A DNA stretch of 64,000 nt, from contig KV423972.1 in the NCBI GenBank assembly GCA_001632435.1, forward strand, positions 1 to 64,000, read 5' to 3'. Below are positions 43,613 through 57,007 of the stretch, one piece after another. Position 1 is the stretch's first letter. Each line of letters opens with the position of its first letter. The DNA is from Calocera cornea HHB12733. Its lineage: Eukaryota > Basidiomycota > Dacrymycetes > Dacrymycetales > Dacrymycetaceae. The position numbers and the translations under genes were made by a program. The notes under the pieces were generated by a model, which did no database searches, was not told the DNA's origin, and was given only the letters and a program-made list of their open reading frames with translations.

Positions 43613-45510
43613 ATGCTTCCTCGGCTTCTGTTTGCTGTTCTGCTCTGCTTGTTCCTTGCGTCGGACGATGTCACCGCTGCTGCTCCCAAGTTCAGACCTT
43701 CCAGGACTGGTCGCCATGCCAATCCCCTTCAAGAGATAGTGGCCAAGCGTCAAGTCAAGGCAAAGGACATCCGCCGGGGAACTCCGACACGACGCCAGAA
43801 CTGCCCGTGAGTGCTTGTCCACTTTGGACTGGCGTACCCGTCGTTGACCGAGACCAGAGTGCCGCTCCAGAGTGGATTGTGTCCCGACATTCTCTGCAGT
43901 GGAGTGTATGTGAACCCTCTGACTGATGCAGAAAATTGTGGAAGCTGCGCACAAGCTTGCAAGATCGGAGAGCCGACAACCGAGTCTCAATCCCAGACGT
44001 GCCAAGGTGGGGTATGTGGATGTTACGATGCCAAGTGAGCTGCTCTTGAATATGCTGAAGTGAAGCAACGCTATTGATACGGTCTGCAGCTACAATACGC
44101 TTTGCGATGACGGTTGTGTGAGTGTCTGGCCGTTCATTCCACAGTATCGCTTCTGATGCGACGCGTTGAAGAGCGATCTCAACACGGATCACTACAACTG
44201 TGGCCAGTGCAGCCATATATGCGGAGATATCGACGAAGGATTCTATTGCCAAAACGGGGTCTGCGTCTTCGAGGATTGTCCGACTGGAGAAGCCTCCTGT
44301 CGAAGCGGTTGCTCAATCCTCGCCACTGATGCAACGAATTGCGGAGCCTGTAATGCCGCATGCAAAATCGCTACGCCGACCACCGAGTCTCGCTCTGAGA
44401 CGTGCGAGGGTGGATCATGTGGATGCTATGATGTCGAGTGAGCTACGCGGTGTTTGAGCGCGGATGGGACGCAACATTGATATAACGTTCTGCAGCTATA
44501 ACACCCTTTGCGACGACGGCTGTGTGAGTTCCTGGTCGTTTGTTCTGCAGAATCGCGACTAATACGAGGTTTTGAAGAGCGATCTCAACACGGATCACTA
44601 CAACTGTGGCAAGTGCGGTCATATATGCGGTGATGTCAACGAAGGATTCTATTGTCAAAACGGGATCTGCGTCTTCGAGGACTGCCCTGCTGGAGAAGCT
44701 TCCTGCCGAAGTGGCTGCTCGATTCTCGCCACGGATGCATCGAATTGCGGAGCCTGTGATGCTGCATGCAAAGTTGCCACGCCGACCACCGAATCTCACT
44801 CTGAGACTTGCGAGGGCGGGTTATGCGGCTGCTACGAGTCTGAGTGAGCTCTACCTTATCCCCGCGTTCATAGCGGAGACCGCTGACCGTCTTGCAGCTA
44901 TAATACACTTTGCTCGGATGGCTGCGTGAGTGACACCACATGTTCCAGCAGCAAGCCCTTATAATACTTCTTGAAGACCGACCTCAATACAGATCACTAC
45001 AATTGCGGTGCATGCAGCCATATCTGCGGCAGTGCAGGCGAAGGTGACATCTGCTATAATGGGAAATGCGTCTATGAGGCATGTTCGACCGAAGCTGAGC
45101 CTGACGCGTGCAAAACGGGATGCACAAACCTGGACACTTCTTCTTCCAATTGCGGAACATGCGGTAACGCATGTAAGCTCCCGGCTCCCGGGGAGTCTCA
45201 GGCAGAGACATGTCAGAGCGGAGTGTGTGGCTGTTACGATCCCGTGTATGTACCCGCTGCTCACTCATGGCGTTGTGCGGAGTGACCATGATAGTGCCTC
45301 TGATCATTCAACCTGCCTACAGATTCAATACCAACTGTCCTGATGGATGTGTACGCCCACACTGTCCCACTCGTTCAGACCATTTGTGCTGACTACAATG
45401 CACATTAGAGTGACCTCAACACCGACCATTACAATTGTGGCCAGTGCGGGCATGTTTGCGGGGATGTCACCGTAGGGTTCATCTGCACGGGCGGCGTATG
45501 TGGGCGTTAG
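43613..45510 (+). CDS. Secreted Cys-rich NCGxCG-repeat (STIG1-like) protein, copy 2
   Basis: Ten exons: 43613-43806, 43858-44034, 44090-44117, 44172-44437, 44496-44523, 44578-44843, 44898-44925, 44977-45245, 45323-45350 and 45409-45510, giving 461 residues. It has a signal peptide (MLPRLLFAVLLCLFL), then the same basic segment as copy 1. Four 28-nt micro-exons each precede a large exon: two of 266 nt, one of 269 nt, and a truncated last one of 102 nt. Each large exon starts (S/T)DLNTDHYNCGxCxHxCG and, except the last, ends near CGCYD(S/V). All joints keep the same phase. Exons 3-4 and 5-6 are nearly identical tandem copies; copy 1 lacks one such pair. Disulfide-rich extracellular role inferred; no enzymatic motif. 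Confidence 0.87.
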
Positions 45511-46295: not shown

Positions 46296-46299
46296 TAAT
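46296..46299. repeat. Target-site duplication TAAT (left)
   Basis: TAAT directly precedes the TG start of the left LTR and is repeated directly after the CA end of the right LTR (52990-52993). The adjoining T could extend it to TAATT. Confidence 0.75.
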
Positions 46300-46688
46300 T
46301 GTGCTGCTAGAAAGGTAGTAGGGTTAGTATCGATAGAAATACATTTTCTTTTCTCCTTTCGAATCGAAGCAATCAACGGGTCGAATCGTCGATACGGTCG
46401 GGTTCGGCGCACGCTGGCCCGCACGGTCTTCGATTCGGACCTTCGGTATGCCGATCGGGCACAGCCCGTAGTATAGGAACCTTTCCATACGCCTTCGGGC
46501 CCTAATGCAATCTCTTCCCCTTTCGACCGCGTCGCTCATTTTGTCCGCTCATCGGCCATTCGAGGCCTCGATTCGATTCGATTTCCACATATATTATCTA
46601 TCTACTACAAGGCGATTCGATACTGCTATCGATTAGTGCCCCTCCCAGTGTCTCGCAGCCTACAGCCCGATATCTGGGTATAGGTACA
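46300..46688 (+). repeat. Left LTR, 389 bp
   Basis: Starts TGTGCTGCTAG and ends GGTACA. I found one difference from the right LTR (T/C in CCCAG[T/C]GTCTCGCAG). The 71-codon minus-strand frame inside it occurs identically in both copies and is not considered a gene. Confidence 0.95.
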
Positions 46689-46689
46689 T

Positions 46690-46707
46690 TGGAGCCCAAC
46701 GCGAGGG
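46690..46707 (+). other. Candidate primer-binding site
   Basis: TGGAGCCCAACGCGAGGG starts 1 nt after the left LTR. The leading TGG pairs with a tRNA CCA end, as expected for minus-strand priming. I did not assign the tRNA. Confidence 0.6.
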
Positions 46708-46788
46708 ATTTCTGGTTGGGGTTACTACAGCGAGCGAGCGAAAATTCGTCGGGGCGTCCAGCGACCCGAGACCCATCAGCAACCGTGA

Positions 46789-48405
46789 CGCTCTGCAGCG
46801 GCAGACCCTTTCGGAGCCAGATACCGACATATCAAAAAGCCGCCAGTTCCAATTTTTGCGGCCCCCCCGGAGGAGACGCTACCGAGGCTCGAATCCACGC
46901 GACAAGCAGACGAGGCGATATTGTCGATTCAACAATACCTTAGGAACTTTCGACGACCGAAAGGACTAACGGATGCACAATGGAAATCATTCCTCGAAAA
47001 GAGCTCGAAGTACTTCTTACAGGGAGAGGACAACCTTTATCAAAGGGACCCGAATGGAGAGCATCGCTTGTATATCGAGTTCGGAAAGCGTCTAAACGTG
47101 CTTCGAAACGTTCACGACGGCATCGGGCATCGAGGATACCGAACCGTGTATGAGCATCTTCGATTAAGGTTCTTCTGGCCGAACATGAGCGAAGACGCCA
47201 AGTGGTACCTGCGAACATGTGAGGAATGCCAGAAACAGCAGATGCGACACGTAGTCATTCCGCCCACAGTGCAACTGCCGCAGCCATTATTCTTCAAGGC
47301 TTACTGCGATACGATGTTGATGCCGTTTTTGAAAGGACGTCATCGAGGCATGCGATTCGTGCTACAAGCCAGGTGCTCGTTGACGCACTGGCCTGAGTAC
47401 ATGATATGTCGAAAGGAAACGGCGGAAGTCATCGAAGAGTTCCTGTACAAGAATGTACTATGTCGATGGGGCGCTTTAGGAGAAATCGTTACCGACAACG
47501 GGACTCCGTACGTTAGTGCGGTATCAAATCTCCAGAAGAAGTATCACCTATCGCACATTCGAATCTCCAGCTACAATTCGAGGGCCAACGGTCTGGTAGA
47601 ACAGAGCCATCGAAGCATCCGCGAATCGATAGTACGAAGTATTCCAGGAGACGTTTCGCATTGGCCTGAAGTCATACCGTCGGTTTTCTGGGCTCAGAGG
47701 ATAGCCATTCACAGCGCCACGGGTATGAGTCCGTTCTACATGGTTCACGGTATACACCCATTACTGCCTATGGACATACTCGAAGCAACGTGGCTTGTAC
47801 CGCCGCCAAATCAGCTCCTATCAAGAGAGGAATTGATATCGTATCGAGCAAGGCAACTCCTGAAGCGAACCAAAGACCTGAATGATATCGAAGAGCGCAT
47901 CTCGCGATCGAGATTTCGAAACGCTGAACGCTTCAGAGAGAAGTTTGAGAACCTGATATTCGATCATCGATTCGACACGGGGGATCTAGTACTCATGAGG
48001 AACAGTAGACACGACGGGCCCCTGCGAGACAAGACGCAACATCGGTATCTAGGACCATACATAGTGGTCAAGAGACATTCGGGCGGCGCATACACATTGG
48101 CCGATTTGGACGGGTCGGTGTTTCGACATACTATCGCGAGGTTCAGAGTGATTCCATACCTGAGCCGGAAAGACCTTTCGGGAGCGATCGAAACGGTGCT
48201 TCGAAACCTCGATAATGCCGATTACGCAGATGGACTCGACCAAGGCATGGCAACGGTAGAAGAAGTCGTTGAAAGCGACATCGAAGGTCTCGATAACACT
48301 GGGATCGGAGCCGATATCGCCGAAGACGAAGAAGAGGACGTAGACGCAGCAGATCCGGAGACCGTCAAATCTATCGAAGGACCGGAGCGTCGAATTGAGG
48401 CATGA
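46789..48405 (+). CDS. Ty3/gypsy-type integrase (no ATG at the frame start)
   Basis: Open frame of 538 codons; the conserved part begins about residue 45 (SIQQYLRNFRRPKGL). Counting from 46921, the HHCC zinc finger is H65, H70, C100, C103 (HDGIGHRG ... CEECQ). The catalytic core triad is D130 (AYCDT), D192 (EIVTDNG) and E227 (NGLVEQ). A chromo/GPY-like C-terminal segment (GPYIVVKRHSGGAYTLADL) follows, then an acidic tail. There is no in-frame ATG before residue 89 of that numbering, so it is probably expressed by fusion, frameshift or splicing from the short frame starting at the LTR edge, or from a non-ATG codon. The catalytic residues look intact, which is unusual in an element that has lost RT. 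Confidence 0.9.
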   Translation, partial: RSAAADPFGARYRHIKKPPVPIFAAPPEETLPRLESTRQADEAILSIQQYLRNFRRPKGLTDAQWKSFLEKSSKYFLQGEDNLYQRDPNGEHRLYIEFGKRLNVLRNVHDGIGHRGYRTVYEHLRLRFFWPNMSEDAKWYLRTCEECQKQQMRHVVIPPTVQLPQPLFFKAYCDTMLMPFLKGRHRGMRFVLQARCSLTHWPEYMICRKETAEVIEEFLYKNVLCRWGALGEIVTDNGTPYVSAVSNLQKKYHLSHIRISSYNSRANGLVEQSHRSIRESIVRSIPGDVSHWPEVIPSVFWAQRIAIHSATGMSPFYMVHGIHPLLPMDILEATWLVPPPNQLLSREELISYRARQLLKRTKDLNDIEERISRSRFRNAERFREKFENLIFDHRFDTGDLVLMRNSRHDGPLRDKTQHRYLGPYIVVKRHSGGAYTLADLDGSVFRHTIARFRVIPYLSRKDLSGAIETVLRNLDNADYADGLDQGMATVEEVVESDIEGLDNTGIGADIAEDEEEDVDAADPETVKSIEGPERRIEA

Positions 48406-48623
48406 GGATAATCCTCGCCTAGTCTTCCTATACCCATACCCGAAGACAGAACATATCAAGCCTTTCGAAACGGTCGATTCGATCCCACGCTCATTGGATT
48501 TTCACTCGATTTCTTACCACCGCACTAATTATCGTACATCGAATCGAGCCCCCCATTCTGGCTCCTAGTATCTCGAAACGCTACCGCTGCATATATCAGA
48601 TTCCCCCCCCCTTTTTTCCAGCA

Positions 48624-51487
48624 CTAGTCCCTCGCCCTCTGCTTCCCCTTGCCCTTCGATTTGGCTCTCGACGCCAACACCTCATCGTCGTCGTCGTCAT
48701 CATCGTCGATTTCGATGACCTCGGACGCGGCCTCGTAAATGGCGCCGGTCACGACCCGATAGCGCCTCTTTGGCTGCAACTCCTTACTGGTGACGGGAGT
48801 CACGAGGATGCGAATCTGCTCGGACTTCAGATCGTCGCTGGCGGTAACGGCCTGGCGGATGACCTTCAGGTTGTCTTCCGCAATGGCGTTCATGACACGC
48901 ATGCGAGCGAATTCCTCACTCAGGCGGTGCAGGACGGTCTCTGGAGTTCGATTAGCCTCGATTCGACGCATCGAACGGATACTCACCTAGATCAGACGAA
49001 TACGCGATGAACAGAGGACTTTCCTCTGTCGCCCAAGCGTGCTCGGGCAGCTCGTAAGTCCGATACGGGACCGTCGTACCCTGATACCCGCTGCCGACAC
49101 TAGCGGTGACGACCCTACTGGCTTCGGAGTCCTCCACCAGCTTCGTCTTCGTTTTCTTCGCAGGCGGTTCGGGCTCCTGATCGGTCTCGTCGCGCGCCCT
49201 CTTGTCCGCTTTAGGACGGCCCTTGTTCTTGCTCGCAAAGCTGCATTCGAGGCCACGAACACGGCAGGAGAGGCAGGCGACCCCATCGGGCTTTTCGAAA
49301 CCTTCCGTCGATTCGTTGGCGCGGTTCCAGCCACCGGTGCAAACGTGCTTCTTGTTAGTGCACATGCCACACTACGACCATGTGAGTCGAAACGTAGAAT
49401 CGACGCTGAAACGGAAATCGATACGTACAGGAGGGTCATTACGACGACCGGGCCTGAACAACGTCTTTCCCTGGACGAACGCCTCGTACTTCGCCCGGTG
49501 ATTCGCGGTGTAGCCTTTGGTGTACACGTCGGCGTCGACGGGAGCACCCACGAATCGATCGGGGTCGTTCTACAGCAGACGTTAGTTCAGCGACGTCGAT
49601 TCGAAATGAGGCTCTTACAGGTCCAGCGGGCTTCTTGGCCACCATCGCCTTAGGGAGGGCTTTCGACCCCGACGCCTCGGGAGCGCCTTTCGAGGAGTCT
49701 CGCACCCCAGCCGTCGATTTTGAGACAGTCGACTTTGTCGCAGTCGACTTCGAAGGCGGCTCCACAGACGACGAGAGGGCCTTCGGCGCGGTCGAAACGG
49801 TATCGACCGTCTTTTTGACGCGGGAAGCAGCCGAACGATTCGATGCCTTCGAAGCGTCGGACGCCTTCGAATCGGACGGGCCACGCGCACCCGATTTCTT
49901 CACCGACAAGGCTTTCAGAGCAGCCTTCCTAGCCTCGGGCGTATGCTCCTTGCACCACTTCTTCTGGCCCTGTTTGTCGAGCGCTTCGAAGGCCGCACAC
50001 TCCCGCTTGATTTGCTTCAAATCGAGCTCATTGTCCTGGTAATCATTAGTACGCCACATCGACGTTGTGCGGCAATCGAAACACGTACCTCCATGTCTTC
50101 AGCCGTCCGCAGCGGCTTTCGGTTCCTCGCAGCGATGTCCAGCTTCAGCAACGCCCAGCGCGAGTAGGGCATGAGGTCGTCCTTGATGGCATCCTCGGTG
50201 CGCTCGCCCGAGCCAGGCACCCATTCTTCAAAAGGGGAATGCAGCGGCGCCCCCAGGGGGAGGTCCAATTCGTCGCGAAGTGGCCCGACGCGCTGCAGTC
50301 ACGTCAGAAAACAGTAAATAGAAAGTAAACCTCACTCACATTCATTTCCTTCCACTTTTCGCGGAACCAGAAACCCATGTATCGAGCGACGGACATGGGG
50401 ACGAAGAGAAAGGCGACGGGATCGCGCCGCACCACCTTCACCAGAGCAACCTGCACACGAGTCAGTACCGTCACATCGAAACAAAGGGGAACGACTTACG
50501 CGGAACGGCTTGATGTTGCCGGGAGTGTTCGCCCATTGGACGAGCTCGTCCTCCTCTTTGGGCATCGTGGCCAGCAAGCGGTCTAGCGCCTTCGTGTCGT
50601 AATGCTGCAAGAGTGTTAGAATCGACGATGCTAGGGGATTTGACCACGTACCGCTTTCAATTCCTCCACGTCCGTTACCTCCTCCTCGACGATTCGAACC
50701 CGTTTCGGCGTTGTCGCCAGCGTCGTACTACTTGCAGTGGACTGGTGATCGATGTTAGCTGTGCTCCAGAAGCGAAGGCGGCAAACTTACCACAACCTTT
50801 GACGAAGCCTTTGACGGCGCCGTTTCGATGTTCCCCAGCTCTGGGCTGGGCGCCTGATGAAACTCAGTTAGTGTACGGACACCCACCTTCGGGCGCGACC
50901 TACCAGAACGGACTCCGCCGCGTCAACCTTTGCCTCAGGCTCCACGATTTGCACACTGTCACCAGGCGTGTCGGCGCTGACACGGCCGTCTTCGGCCCCG
51001 TTGTCCGGGCCATCGTCGCCGTCGACATCGACATCGACGCGTTCCTTGCGCTTGGGTGTGTGACCGCCTTTCTTCCTCCACGTCGCGTCGCTCAACTTCG
51101 TAGCCTTCGGCGGCGTGCTCGGCTGCTCGAGCTCCTCGCCATCGGCGTCTTCGACCACGTCTTCGTCGATACCGCCAGGCTGCGCGTACCGATCAGCGCA
51201 CACGCGCGACATGCACATTGCCCATCGACACTTACCGAAGTGGTCTCGTCCGCCGCGTCTTCCCAGTCGGGGTCGTGATCTTCTTCGATGGCGTCCTTCT
51301 CCGCAGACGCATCGATCTCCTCATCGCTATCCTTTGGGCCAACCGCCGAGCCCGTCTGCGACGCGGCGTCGCCGTCCGCCGCTTCAGTCGCTCCACGGGC
51401 AGCCTTCGCCTCCTTCACCAGACGGTCCGCCTTCTTTTCTGACGCGCGAAGCGCCGCTCCAGTCAGTTGTCTGCCGCCAGTCGCCAT
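48624..51487 (-). CDS. Antisense spliced gene inside LTR element: Zn2Cys6-like acidic/basic protein
   Basis: Eleven exons: 51236-51487, 50904-51179, 50791-50853, 50652-50741, 50500-50604, 50340-50450, 50089-50292, 49619-50035, 49429-49569, 48987-49371 and 48624-48940. All have GT-AG introns of 46-56 nt and join in frame to 786 residues. The N-terminus is charged (ATEAADGDAAS, DEEIDASAEKDAIEED). The middle contains a conserved-looking block (FRVALVKVVRRDPVAFLFVP, MGFWFREKWKEMN, PYSRWALLKLDIAARNRKP), then a Lys/Ser/Ala-rich linker. A cysteine cluster follows, CGMCTNKKHVC and CLSCRVRGLEC (C-x2-C-x6-C twice, long loop between), as in Zn2Cys6 domains. The C-terminus has an eight-Asp run and a basic tail. 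A TATAAATA box lies 117 nt upstream. The gene runs opposite to the integrase. Function is unknown; DNA or nucleic-acid binding is inferred. Confidence 0.88.
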
Positions 51488-52600
51488 TTCTGCCAGTACA
51501 GCCAGTCACAGAGTAACCCAGCAGAGCAGTCAAGTCGAGAAACCGCCCAGAGCGATGGACGTTCAAGAGCAAGACACAACGCAGCGAAACGGCGAGCGCC
51601 TCCTATTTATATCAGACGCGCCCTCGAAATGCCCCCGTTAGCCGTTCCGAAGCGATGAGACCCCTATTCCCGAGTCTTCCGTCGCGCGTCGTGCCTAGGG
51701 ATAGGCACAGTCATAGTCCCCCGCGGCATAGGGACGACGCGACGTGACGCGTCAAGGGACTCAGCTGACCGAGAATTGTTTTCGTTTCGAAGCCGAATCG
51801 AATCGAATCGAGGCACGCAACAGTTCCCAGACGAGGCCAGTTTGGATACGGGCAACGAATACAGAGTCCCCCGCGGCCAGAGAAGTACTGAGAATTGAGG
51901 ACCGAAGACAAATCGACATCGTAAGAGCCAGAAGAATGGTACGCGACAACTGGGAATATTCCGTACAAAAAGCAATTCGACGGGCATATCGATGATTCGA
52001 CGAAAAGTCGATTACAAATCGATGAGCGTATCAGCGATTCGATAAATGACCGATTACAAATCGATGAGGAATTAGGGACGCGAATAGGGGTCCGGGTCAT
52101 CGAATCATTGGACCCCTATTCATCGAAACCCCATAGGGACCTTTGGGCGCAGCCTCGAAAGGGGCATTCGATCTTCTCCCTCGACCGTCACCGTCTCGCT
52201 CCCTTGCCCGTATACCTCGCTCGCGAAATGGAGAATTCGTCCACCGATTCGTCGCCCGATGCGCTCGCAATCGCGCGTACGCTTACGCCTACTGTTACGA
52301 CTGCGAACGCGGGCCGCCGTACGCCCCTGCCTCGCGCGCTCCCGCTCATATGCGCATCCCTCGTCCTCGGCCACCTTGCGCTGAGCGACTATCGAACGAC
52401 CGATCCGACGAACCTTCGGTCGATGGCCTTCCCGTCCGCTGGCGCTCGCAACGCCCTCGGCGCCGTTTTGATCGGATCCGCCGTTACGCGCAACGGCCAG
52501 AGGACCGATTCGACGACCGAATCGACCGAGACCGTGAAGAACGACCCCTCGACATCGCTCTAGATGACTGAGGACAGTCATTCAATGAGTCCCCCGCGGA
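51488..52600. other. Internal element region between antisense gene and right LTR
   Basis: Contains the TATA box of the antisense gene. Two plus-strand frames of unclear status are present: 51744-51995 ends in a plausible basic helix (RIEDRRQIDIVRARRMVRDN); 52143-52571 is Arg/Asp-rich. AGTCCCCCGCGG occurs three times, at 51715-51726, 51865-51876 and 52588-52599. An imperfect tandem repeat built on GATTACAAATCGATGAG lies at about 52008-52068. No clear polypurine tract is seen before the right LTR. Confidence 0.5.
51604..51611 (-). promoter_or_regulatory. TATA box of the antisense element gene
   Basis: TATAAATA on the minus strand (context GATATAAATAGG), 117 nt upstream of the ATG at 51487. 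It is the only strong TATA motif I saw upstream of that ATG. Confidence 0.6.
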
Positions 52601-52989
52601 TGTGCTGCTAGAAAGGTAGTAGGGTTAGTATCGATAGAAATACATTTTCTTTTCTCCTTTCGAATCGAAGCAATCAACGGGTCGAATCGTCGATACGGTC
52701 GGGTTCGGCGCACGCTGGCCCGCACGGTCTTCGATTCGGACCTTCGGTATGCCGATCGGGCACAGCCCGTAGTATAGGAACCTTTCCATACGCCTTCGGG
52801 CCCTAATGCAATCTCTTCCCCTTTCGACCGCGTCGCTCATTTTGTCCGCTCATCGGCCATTCGAGGCCTCGATTCGATTCGATTTCCACATATATTATCT
52901 ATCTACTACAAGGCGATTCGATACTGCTATCGATTAGTGCCCCTCCCAGCGTCTCGCAGCCTACAGCCCGATATCTGGGTATAGGTACA
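52601..52989 (+). repeat. Right LTR, 389 bp
   Basis: Same length as the left LTR with one noticed mismatch; TG...CA ends. Confidence 0.95.
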
Positions 52990-52993
52990 TAAT
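52990..52993. repeat. Target-site duplication TAAT (right)
   Basis: Copy of 46296-46299 directly after the CA end of the right LTR. Confidence 0.75.
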
Positions 52994-53897: not shown

Positions 53898-54406
53898 TGA
53901 TTTCCCTATCGGCTCGGCTCAGCGACTTTTTTGGTCCGAGCTGGAGCTGCGCCGTGAAAGTGGCTCAGCATCAACTCGGCTTCGGCTCGAGCCACAGCTC
54001 CGGCTTGCGTTAGTTTAGGTCGACTTGAGCTGGGATCTTTCTCACAATAGTCATCCCGAAGACCCATCAGAGGAATTAGATGCTCAATTCGTCCAGCTGT
54101 GCACGACCAATGACATGAATACTTGTATCAATGATCTTTGCGACTCGGCCGTCGCAGTTTGGCAGCCAGAAGATCGAATTCGACGTGTTAAGTCCGAGGA
54201 GATAACGACACGGCCGGAAGGTGCAGCGCCGCAGCGACGCGACGCGAAGCGACCCTGAGCGGCACAGCATGATCGCATCCTCGAAGCAATCTCAGGGCGG
54301 CTTGCAGAGTCATCTTGTAAACATTACCACCCACTGCTCTATCTACTTTGCCATTCATTCTAGTCTTTAATCTTGATATCTGTAACTTCCTCAGCAATAT
54401 CACCTA
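53898..54406. other. Intergenic, Cys-rich remnant / Zn2Cys6 factor 2
   Basis: Contains repeated GGCTCG/CTCGAGCC words around 53910-54000 and the promoter side of the transcription factor. No gene recognised. Confidence 0.5.
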
Positions 54407-57007
54407 ATGGAATCGAGAGTGTCTGCGAGGAGGACCAAAGCGTGTGATGTGAGTCAATCATCACTCGGGGTGGCTTGGCGGCCAGCTGATGCTCGCCAGG
54501 CGTGTCACAGGCGCAAGATTCGGTGCGATGGCCAAGAGGGGAACCCAGAACCATGTACATATTGGTGCGCCGTATGGCTCGCTATAATGAAGCACGGACT
54601 GACATTTACACTCAGTGTGAAGAATAACTACGAGTGTCACTTTACCTACCGTCCAAACAAGTGGCCACCGTCCAAGACATACGTTGATGGGCTGGAGAGG
54701 CGGGTGGACTACCTCGAGCGTCGCGTTAGCACCCTCCGACAAGAAGTGGCTCGACTTCGAGAAGGTGGAGGAGTTGCATCTGGCTACATCTCATCCGAGT
54801 CGGACGAATTCGAATCGGTCTCACCACCGCGCGATGACGAGGACGATGAGGCCTCTGAGGCGTTACGAGAGATGACAGAGCGATATGAGGGTCTGTGGTT
54901 ATCTCCACCGACAGGCATGAAGGTAAATCAAGAGCCGCGCATGTTTCACGGTCAAGCATCCCATATGCACGTTCTGAACCGCCAAATCGCCGAGCTGGGC
55001 GAGCAGAGCCTTGAGAAAGCGAAGGCGTTCCAGCTGCGTGTTCGTCCCGAATTCCGCACTCTCGACCCACATCTGTTTGACTTCGACACTGTGGACTTGG
55101 GTACTCACCCTCCCGACTGGCCTGAACCCGATCTTGCCAAGCTCCTGATCGACGCCTTCTTTCACCGCTACAACAACGTCTTCCCGTTACTGCATCGACC
55201 CACCTTCATGAGGCAGTATTCAGATCCAGCCACAAGACTTGAGGCTGACTGGGTTGCACTGGCATTCGGGGTATTTGCAATTGCTTCGAAGTACGTTGAT
55301 GATCCGCGTGTTCTGCCGGAGAGCGGCAATTGGCACAACGCTGGGCAGAAGTACTGGAAGGAGATGCGGTGCGTCCTGCTGTCTCCATAACCCCGAGCGG
55401 TTTCTGAATTCTTGCTCATTAGACGGGTGATGTCTCCGCTGTATGCACCGCCAACGCTTATGCGGCTGCAAGCGTTGGTCCTGTTCGTCTGGTATTTCAG
55501 CGGATCTCCGCTATTCCCCTCGGCCGGCTGGGCGCTCATAGGTCTCGCTCTGCGATACGTCCAAGACGCAGGGATGCACCTGAAGAAAGAGTGGACAAAA
55601 CGCGCGACGGCCCATCCATTCGAATATGAGCTGCGGAAGCGAGTATTTTGGGTGTTGTACTTGATGGAGAGAACGTTGACGCTGGAGATGGATAGGAGCT
55701 TCTGCCTCCAGGAGGAGGAGTGGGCATAACAGCAGATGCATATCCTAAATGTGCTAATTGTTTGCATAGACATGATGTCGACCTTCCGTGCGAGCTGGAT
55801 GACTCCGGGCTGGATTTGCTGCAGCAAGGCCAAAAGAATCCATCGGGCTATTCACTCATAATGGCTTCCTTCAACGCACGGATGCGGTTGCTCAGCTTCG
55901 GCAGTCGAAAGCGGGGCGAATTGCGCGCGATTCGGCGCTTATCCAAGGAGTCCGATCTCGTAGACCGCGAACGCAATTGGTTGCACAGCATCCGCACTAA
56001 ACTCGATCATTATATGGCAAATCTACCCGACAATTTAAAGTACAACGAAGACGAGAAGAATGACGATGACTATAACGTCCTCGCTCTCTTGCAGTTGCAG
56101 TATCATCAAATCCAGGTAAATTGATTAGCTGCTGTTCTGAGACATCTCTGATCCCCTGTAGTATGCCATGTATCGTCCTTTCCTTTCCAGCTCGAAGAGA
56201 GCGATACATGCGCAGGAACATATTCTGGAGATCTGCTGTGAAGTGTCAAGGTCTGTTGCTCGCATATTGGACATGATGCGACAACGAAATTTGGTGATCG
56301 GACGTATTCATGAGACTTCTTTGGGCGGGTTCATTGCGGGTACTGTTCTTCTCATGAACATGTGGGAGCTTAAGACCTATGATCACATGGATGACGTTGA
56401 GAAGTGCATCAATGCGATACAGACAATTGAGGACCGGTGCGCATCAATCTAGACGTCGAGATTCTGGATACTGACCTTGCTGTCAAACAGCTGGCAATGG
56501 CCGGGACGAGTCCGCGACGTCCTCTGCAACCTCCAAGAGGTCATCCGTATAACGATCGGAAACGCTTCTGGGGTGACGCAACCATCTGAGAGCAGTACAG
56601 ACGGGGTCGAGATGTCCGAAGCTGTGGTAATGGAGACACCGCAAGTGAGCCAATATGGCTGCTTCCCGCTCTTCCCCGCTGATTGACTATCATAGAATCC
56701 GTTCTCCTTCGGCGCATCCGATGGTACCCAGACGACGGCAAGCTACCATAGCTTTGCACCCTCTTTACCCGATGCTATTGTCTCCGCACCAATCGTCGAC
56801 CTCTTCTCGGAACCGCAGCTTCCTGTTCAAGCGCTGTTCGGCGACCAAACGATGTCAGTGGATGACTGGTCCTTCCCTAATCAGCCAGTCATCGATAATG
56901 AATTCTCTGACTGGATGAACAACATGATCTTCACCGTCCAACAGTCCGGTGATCTGACTAGCTCGCTGGATAGTTTCAACCCGGGCAGTGATGCCCCGCC
57001 TGCATAG
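54407..57007 (+). CDS. Zn2Cys6 transcription factor with fungal_trans domain, copy 2
   Basis: Eight exons: 54407-54448, 54500-54564, 54616-55368, 55423-55719, 55770-56115, 56162-56436, 56491-56644 and 56696-57007, giving 747 residues. The zinc cluster KACD/ACHRRKIRC.../PCTYCVKNNYEC is built over the first three exons, as in copy 1 (9165-12051). Linker PNKWPPSKTYVDGLERRV, acidic segment and the fungal transcription factor region follow (IDAFFHRYNNVFPLLHRPTFM, GWALIGLALRYVQDAGMH, RKRVFWVLYLMER). All seven introns fall at equivalent positions; exons 4 (297 nt) and 6 (275 nt) have identical lengths. The C-terminus has diverged and is shorter. It is a nuclear regulator; targets are not deducible. 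Confidence 0.93.

Follow-up and report, generated by a model that had tools for sequence, protein, structure and literature searches.

The window analysed here, a stretch of 64,000 nucleotides on contig C59 of an assembly of 32.1 Mb and 302 contigs, harbors a Ty3/gypsy-type LTR element (46300-52989, 6690 bp) that carries a multi-exon gene, ASG1, on the strand opposite to its integrase (Table 1). The preliminary description of this DNA had proposed a young LTR element of 6.69 kb, and this was borne out by the LTRs and by the TAAT target-site duplication. The LTRs are 99.74% identical, which indicates a recent insertion, and the LTR ends of elements of this family read TG...CA. Moreover, the primer-binding-site-like sequence next to the 5' LTR lies on the plus strand, and the sense of the element is therefore plus. 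In the integrase ORF, homology to integrases begins at 46831 and an ATG is absent near the ORF start; Pfam matched Integrase_H2C2 (6e-17) and rve (0.011, under the rve cut-off).

The ASG1 gene, read from 51487 to 48624, consists of 11 exons separated by ten GT-AG introns of 46-57 nt each, and its 786 codons end in one stop. Splice chaining without coding knowledge gave too many introns (14), and the ten yielding the 786 codons of the preliminary description were retained. The resulting protein is identical in 786/786 residues to CALCODRAFT_483673, deposited from the jelly fungus Calocera cornea HHB12733, which confirmed the complete 11-exon antisense gene described earlier.

Table 1. Positions of the features of the gene-bearing element in the window
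Feature	Position	Strand	Remarks
Target-site duplication TAAT, left	46296-46299	.	exact, 4 bp
5' LTR	46300-46688	+	389 bp, TGTGCTGC...GGTACA; 388/389 identical to 3' LTR
Primer-binding-site-like TGGAGCCCAACGCGAG	46690-46705	+	adjoins 5' LTR; same place in C20 and C5
Integrase ORF	46789-48405	+	538 codons, stop to stop
Internal deletion junction	46835-46836	.	about 4.35 kb missing relative to sister copy C20
Antisense gene ASG1	48624-51487	-	in the interval from integrase ORF to 3' LTR; convergent with pol
ASG1 exons 1-6	51487-51236, 51179-50904, 50853-50791, 50741-50652, 50604-50500, 50450-50340	-	
ASG1 exons 7-11	50292-50089, 50035-49619, 49569-49429, 49371-48987, 48940-48624	-	
Zn2Cys6-like double cluster, C-x2-C-x6-C ... 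C-x2-C-x6-C	49243-49371	-	residues 554-596, directly after a phase-0 intron
ASG1 conserved core	50340-50741	-	about residues 198-299; phase-0 introns after R262 and N299, common to other families
Putative TATA box TATAAATA	51604-51611	-	-124 from ASG1 ATG; kept in 7/7 copies read
Inverted repeat GTGCCTA/TAGGCAC	51691-51708	.	beside promoter-proximal motif
CCGCGGGGGACT motif, promoter-proximal	51715-51726	-	-239 from ATG
CCGCGGGGGACT motif, second site	51865-51876	-	-389 from ATG
Inverted repeat ATGACTG-AGGA-CAGTCAT	52564-52581	.	counterparts next to LTR in ASG2 and ASG3 elements
CCGCGGGGGACT motif abutting 3' LTR	52588-52599	-	at the expected polypurine-tract position
3' LTR	52601-52989	+	389 bp; 1 mismatch (99.74%) to 5' LTR
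Target-site duplication TAAT, right	52990-52993	.	exact, 4 bp

Recurrence of the gene and its introns

The window copy belongs to a family of 11-kb elements and has itself undergone an internal deletion. Two sister copies, C20:252936-263988 and C5:255616-267077, measure about 11 kb each, and the former contains in order a Gag ORF with a CCHC knuckle (CLWCGAVEHWAKDC), an assembly gap into which its RT falls, pol, the antisense gene and the 3' LTR. In the window copy, the first 534 bp of the element are fused to the start of the integrase, and the approximately 4.35 kb of gag-PR-RT-RNase H present in C20 are gone. This copy encodes no reverse transcriptase and was presumably mobilised in trans with its antisense gene kept intact. 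Exact 4-bp target duplications flank all four two-LTR copies read (TAAT in C59; CCTG, ACAC and GCCG in C20, C5 and C88), and the identity of the LTRs within a copy is 99.7% in the window, 99.7% in C20, 96.6% in C5 and 97.7% in C88. The primer-binding-site-like sequence was read in the window, C20 and C5.

When the ASG1 protein was compared with its own genome, at least 61 matches were obtained in eight loci, each on its own contig and every one in element context; a donor gene outside elements was not found among these matches. At seven of the eight loci (C59, C20, C5, C88, C36, C63 and C201) the gene has a family LTR about 1.1 kb upstream; three of these copies (C36, C63 and C201) extend past the contig end. 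The eighth locus, C21:209907, is a remnant and is convergent with what is left of an integrase. Furthermore, a search with the family LTR gave 33 matches, 12 of them within the eight loci; at the other 21, some of which are at contig ends, no gene was matched.

Five ASG1 copies were compared in ten pairs. The GT...AG dinucleotides were retained in 50/50 intron instances, and in every pair the introns (10-19% divergent) had changed more than the coding sequence (4-9%). Substitutions were enriched at codon position 3 in all ten pairs (p <= 3e-6), and dN/dS, which had been proposed as a check, was 0.17-0.24 throughout; the integrase gave 0.08-0.22 in six pairs of four copies. Of the four complete copies, three (the window, C20 and C88) have an intact ASG1 frame and one (C5) a broken frame; in C36 the frame stays open as far as the contig end. 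In the three copies with an intact frame, length changes are confined to introns, with zero in coding sequence. A similar pattern was observed for the second gene, ASG2. Matches to it lie in 11 contigs, with several stops in some of the copies; the figures were taken from three copies (C21, C247 and C2), whose introns are 11-21% divergent against 3-5% for coding sequence, with GT...AG in 24/24 introns and the available part free of stops. Judged by these comparisons, exons and splice sites are under purifying selection in the two families tested.

Among relatives of the integrase, C21:199698 (50% identical) and C251 and C127 (42-43%) also have a multi-intron antisense gene, convergent with pol and between LTRs. 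At C37:61572, a decayed integrase piece (47% identical), no recognisable antisense exons were present in the open-frame list. ASG2 (C21:196975-199267) encodes 614 aa and has 8 introns; its element context was checked at 3 loci. ASG3, found in 3 contigs and checked at 2, encodes about 577 aa and has 6 introns, the third of which has a weak donor (GTGCCG) and is a guess. ASG4 was located by following the CCGCGG motif described below, and could be read through two introns to the contig end at C119, through one intron to a gap at C17, and at the gene start alone at C250. Counterparts of the antisense gene are known from four element families, and the place between pol and the 3' LTR is retained in those where pol was observed, namely ASG1, ASG2 and ASG3. 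In the pol of ASG2, Pfam gave the order RVT_1 (1e-4, under the cut-off), RT_RNaseH and Integrase_H2C2. The recurrence between LTRs in one orientation, a check that had been set beforehand, was observed in the window family and in further families.

Plain sequence similarity between the families is weak. BLASTP gave E values of 0.003-0.004 for ASG1-ASG4, 0.006-0.008 for ASG1-ASG2, 0.13-0.26 for ASG2-ASG4 and above 1 for ASG3, and hhalign gave E 0.0076 at a probability of 5%. In a MAFFT alignment blind to introns, however, two introns, both in phase 0, fell in identical columns in ASG1 (after residues 262 and 299), ASG2 (74 and 117) and ASG4 (202 and 239). A phase-0 intron after Arg is present in four of four families (GPAIR| in ASG3, which is without the second shared intron). 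Moreover, in the three families for which that part is available, ASG1, ASG2 and ASG3, the cluster begins, with its first Cys, immediately after a phase-0 intron, and the final intron is in phase 1. These common positions and phases indicate that the introns are older than the families.

Strong intron-like signals were also counted by strand. ASG1, ASG2 and ASG3 gave 9, 7 and 4 antisense against 1, 0 and 0 sense, and shuffled sequences gave 0.4-0.8 (0.5 for the window). As a control, the regions behind the integrase of four distant gypsy-type integrase matches in this genome (open frames >1300 codons), taken without fixed LTR borders, gave 0, 2, 0 and 0 antisense and 2, 1, 0 and 1 sense. At one control locus, C170, a 424-codon open frame lies antisense to the integrase.

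Zinc cluster and CCGCGG sites

The double C-x2-C-x6-C cluster noted in the preliminary description was found again at residues 554-596 of ASG1, as CGMCTNKKHVC-x21-CLSCRVRGLECSF. The cluster of ASG2 is CERCDASDKVC-x8-CTACHMLAKPCSF, i.e. C-x2-C-x6-C-x8-C-x2-C-x6-C, and that of ASG3 is CHPC-x15-C ... CGHCRDVTKGQCSF, with x15 inside the first cluster; the ASG4 reading ends at a contig end ahead of this region. The Zn2Cys6 (Gal4-type) pattern is CX2CX6CX5-12CX2CX6-8C, a spacing that ASG2 has and that ASG1, with its x21 loop, and ASG3 do not. The likeness to fungal Zn2Cys6 factors thus comprises the ASG2 spacing, the UniRef name of the ASG2 relative P0006, which begins 'Zn(2)-C6 fungal-type d', and the CGG-type sites treated below. 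The differences are a cluster located mid-protein or later, few basic residues, and the long loops of ASG1 and ASG3. In addition, Zn_clus was absent from the Pfam matches listed for the three ASG proteins, as was TRP28 (PF04195); no domain was found in two of them, and the third had DUF7018 alone (E 0.06, under the cut-off). The ASG1 protein has long charged low-complexity stretches, an AlphaFold model of the antisense protein was unusable (mean pLDDT 36), and PDB sequence searches with it gave no useful match. The antisense protein is Zn2Cys6-like and probably DNA-binding.

Upstream of the gene, the window family has its own conserved putative TATA box; a box like TATAAATA was not seen at the corresponding place in ASG2 or ASG3. 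Further upstream lies a 12-bp CCGCGG motif, CCGCGGGGRACT, which has 65 sites in the genome, multiple copies of one element each being counted, against 7 for the reversed pattern. Fifty-six of these sites are in or beside antisense-gene elements and 9 are elsewhere; the former comprise 18 at ASG1-gene loci, 9 beside ASG1-family LTRs where no gene was seen, 17 at ASG2 loci and 12 at ASG4-type loci (3 of the 12, on C156, assigned by motif context alone). The ASG1, ASG2 and ASG4 elements, hardly alignable otherwise, typically have two or three sites each, and in all three families one of them is 197-239 bp ahead of the antisense ATG; among the window-family copies, C5 retains one exact site and C88 two. 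Behind several sites stands an inverted repeat; its two arms vary from site to site, but their complementarity is preserved. CCGCGG consists of two back-to-back CGG half-sites of the type bound by Zn2Cys6 proteins, and the sites are candidate CGG-type binding sites.

The motif also abuts the LTR in ASG1 and ASG2, and a similar block suggests the same for ASG4. The ASG4 loci have, in addition, a counterpart of the inverted repeat at 52564-52581. No exact motif was found in ASG3 elements, and the first cluster of the ASG3 protein has a different spacing. At the LTR border of ASG3 there is a purine run, GGGGGGGA, where ASG1 and ASG2 have AGTYCCCCGCGGA; the LTR-abutting motif may therefore be the equivalent of a polypurine tract, and this possibility is the main weakness of reading the sites as operators.

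Readings of the antisense gene

Starting from the anatomy of the element, the recurrence of the gene, the selection on it and the shared introns, all established by sequence comparison, we favour, with a probability of roughly 0.58, the reading that ASG1 is an ancient accessory gene that belongs to the elements of a Ty3/gypsy lineage, lies on their antisense strand, is spliced, and probably encodes a DNA-binding protein that regulates the element. The introns pass through retrotransposition, since in the genomic RNA, which is the sense strand, they read CT...AC and remain unspliced. This route had been suggested in the preliminary description, and the ten introns kept in five copies agree with it; the introns have outlasted many rounds of retrotransposition. 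Transcription of the antisense gene would start from its own promoter, the host would splice the transcript, and translation would yield a DNA-binding nuclear protein of Zn2Cys6-like type. This protein might bind the CCGCGGGGRACT sites that lie upstream of the promoter of its gene, perhaps also those beside the 3' LTR, and such binding could tune antisense against sense expression of the element.

A more specific form of this reading is tentative, and we would not yet put it at even odds. It holds that the reverse strand is a self-contained control unit, composed of a multi-intron Zn2Cys6-type regulator gene and its own CCGCGG operators at the promoter and the LTR border. The introns, derived from the common ancestor of the families, would act as a strand lock, in that antisense-derived mRNA alone would be spliced to a functional message and genomic RNA would carry the gene inert. 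Several observations count against the favoured reading as a whole, namely the broken gene of C5, the C37 relative without recognisable exons, the long antisense frame at the control locus C170, the weak similarity between families, the ASG3 elements without the exact motif, the few exact sites of C5 and C88, an LTR-abutting motif that may serve reverse transcription rather than transcription, the lack of a listed Pfam Zn_clus, the unusable AlphaFold model, and a protein that the searches found in C. cornea only, though related pol is widespread.

An element-owned antisense protein might instead have a non-transcriptional role, such as nuclear import, RNA export or chaperoning, integration targeting, or an env-like or anti-silencing function, with the LTR-side CCGCGG serving as a reverse-transcription or packaging signal. 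Consistent with this are the long charged low-complexity stretches of the protein, the inverted repeat with a AGTYCCCCGCGGA or AGTTCGGGGGGGA block at the polypurine-tract position in ASG1, ASG2 and ASG3 (and a similar block in ASG4 loci), and the inverted repeats beside several sites, which vary in sequence and keep their self-complementarity as RNA hairpins do. The further site upstream of the antisense ATG in three families, the Zn2Cys6-like cluster and the name of P0006 argue in the other direction, and we regard this role as unlikely, although a serious competitor. It is quite improbable that the gene came from the host in a single capture and has since been mere cargo, useful to the host or to nobody. 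In favour of this, ten spliceosomal introns and a zinc cluster of fungal type are what one would expect of a host gene, and the orientation permits capture with introns. However, no donor for the captured host regulator suggested earlier was found in this genome, the ASG1 matches obtained (at least 61) all lying in the eight element loci; the gene, with the same intron positions, is an old component common to four families; and selection is seen between element copies. For the same reasons of recurrent loci, further families and selection, a single chance insertion or capture was rejected, while a very old capture is possible as the ultimate origin.

The antisense transcript could also act as an RNA, by silencing of or interference with the sense RNA, its reading frame being incidental; antisense noncoding retroelement transcripts have been described in the accessible portions of PMC7264820 and, for a fungus, PMC10648671. 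The codon-position bias, the dN/dS of about 0.2, the frame intact in three of four complete copies and the restriction of length changes to introns strongly disfavour this explanation, which we consider very improbable. Replacement of Gag by the antisense gene, another earlier suggestion, would suit the window copy, which is without gag, but that copy is a deletion derivative and C20 carries both a Gag ORF with its knuckle and the antisense gene, and this proposal was rejected. Overall, the earlier interpretation stood with respect to the spliced antisense gene and the survival of its introns; Gag replacement fell, and host capture found no support in this genome.

Distribution and known systems

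A search with the linker and integrase part of the ASG2 pol (residues 700-1240) gave 571 proteins at E <= 1e-60 among 7,996 scored. The relatives are 45-52% identical in the 120 listed, and Leucocoprinus, Candolleomyces and Mycena are among the names, so that the pol lineage is widespread. In these three genera, pol shares 46-48% identity with the ASG2 pol. The antisense protein was not found outside C. cornea in two database searches, each of which scored about 8,000 candidates sharing exact words and would therefore miss distant relatives.

A Boty-like element of Botrytis cinerea with an antisense gene, brtn, was reportedly described by Zhao et al. in 2011. It is known here from citing papers alone, which mention it in the portions available (PMC8365987, PMC4227169 and PMC5987419), and it resembles the present case in that a gypsy element of a fungus carries one more gene, on the antisense strand. 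According to the same partial sources, the Boty-like Gag-Pol has a chromodomain, whereas Pfam lists none in the integrase ORFs of the C. cornea elements. In plant Retand elements, antisense ORFs between pol and the 3' LTR are typical. As far as the available text goes, the plant Retand/Tat-type gypsy elements (TRP28 domain; Grande gene23 and RIRE2) share with the ASG genes the place, the antisense orientation and retention throughout a lineage, and the suggested DNA binding and the own promoter in Grande resemble the reading favoured here. The ASG genes differ in having no listed TRP28/PF04195, in their zinc cluster and shared motif sites, and in 6-10 introns with positions conserved between families; the word 'intron' is absent, by word count, from the main text of the two papers on these plant elements.

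The HTLV-1 antisense gene HBZ encodes a bZIP protein. It is likewise an antisense-strand gene of a retroelement, while the ASG genes encode a zinc-cluster protein, have many introns and, in the window family, a putative TATA box inside the element. The antisense genes of HTLV and the antisense promoter in its 3' LTR are mentioned in passages of the same two papers.

The statement of the preliminary description that no named fungal retroelement has this layout was thus too strong, in view of what the partly available literature says of brtn and of the Retand antisense ORFs. Antisense ORFs at this place are already known in plants and Botrytis; the spliced gene with conserved introns adds to a known kind, and what is new is the spliced variant rather than the category. 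No description of such a spliced gene was found in the literature searched, which was largely without subscription journals, and by word count 'antisense' and 'intron' are absent from the available text of a 2011 survey of fungal LTR elements (PMC3248453).

Each cycle of an LTR element is expected to remove spliceosomal introns; the introns conserved here across diverged families constitute a natural record that antisense introns can be heritable through reverse transcription over long times. Furthermore, fungal gypsy elements gain a candidate for a regulator of their own, for which binding sites are predicted, and the role of LTR-element antisense genes thereby becomes testable by a binding assay. 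Genes of the ASG type in the C. cornea genome are currently annotated as hypothetical or Zn(2)-C6 proteins.

The 3' LTR border and the adjacent sense frame

A canonical polypurine tract was not found before the 3' LTR in the elements carrying the antisense gene ASG1 or its counterpart ASG2 from a further family (C247:26669, C2:2282 and window 52588). At these sites, its position was occupied by a conserved inverted repeat together with AGTYCCCCGCGGA, and this replacement suggests that plus-strand priming of both kinds of element is unusual.

The small sense ORF near this border was uninterrupted in six of seven ASG1-family copies, and a 12-nt length variation among the copies preserved the frame. 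In C20, a sister element with Gag and Pol, the ORF was cut to 39 aa. A Pfam scan of the frame around the ORF returned no match.

Features in and around the elements
Feature	Position	Strand	Context
Small sense ORF (MENSSTDSSPD...), 111-115 aa	window 52228-52563	+	between ASG1 and 3' LTR
Open stretch, antisense strand of ASG3 element	C251:11542-12190 (L028)	+	upstream of ASG3, within LTRs
424-codon open frame	C170:55800-59294 (L053)		other gypsy-type element, same genome; antisense to and downstream of integrase
Direct repeat, 300 nt, 82% identity	window 44054-44353 and 44460-44759		left of element
Frame like host fungal Zn2Cys6 transcription factor (ACHRRKIRCDG..), by eye	window 54386-55390	+	~1.4 kb right of 3' LTR

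Further antisense frames

The open stretch accompanying ASG3, another counterpart of ASG1, is perhaps a second antisense gene of its element. By eye, its acidic end resembles the C-terminus of ASG1. The 424-codon frame on C170, one of the control loci, may be an unrelated insertion.

Surroundings of the window element

Judged by eye, the DNA to either side of the element codes for cysteine-rich sequence, so a cysteine-rich gene cluster may have been its insertion site. No relation of the Zn2Cys6-like host-type frame to ASG1 was evident.
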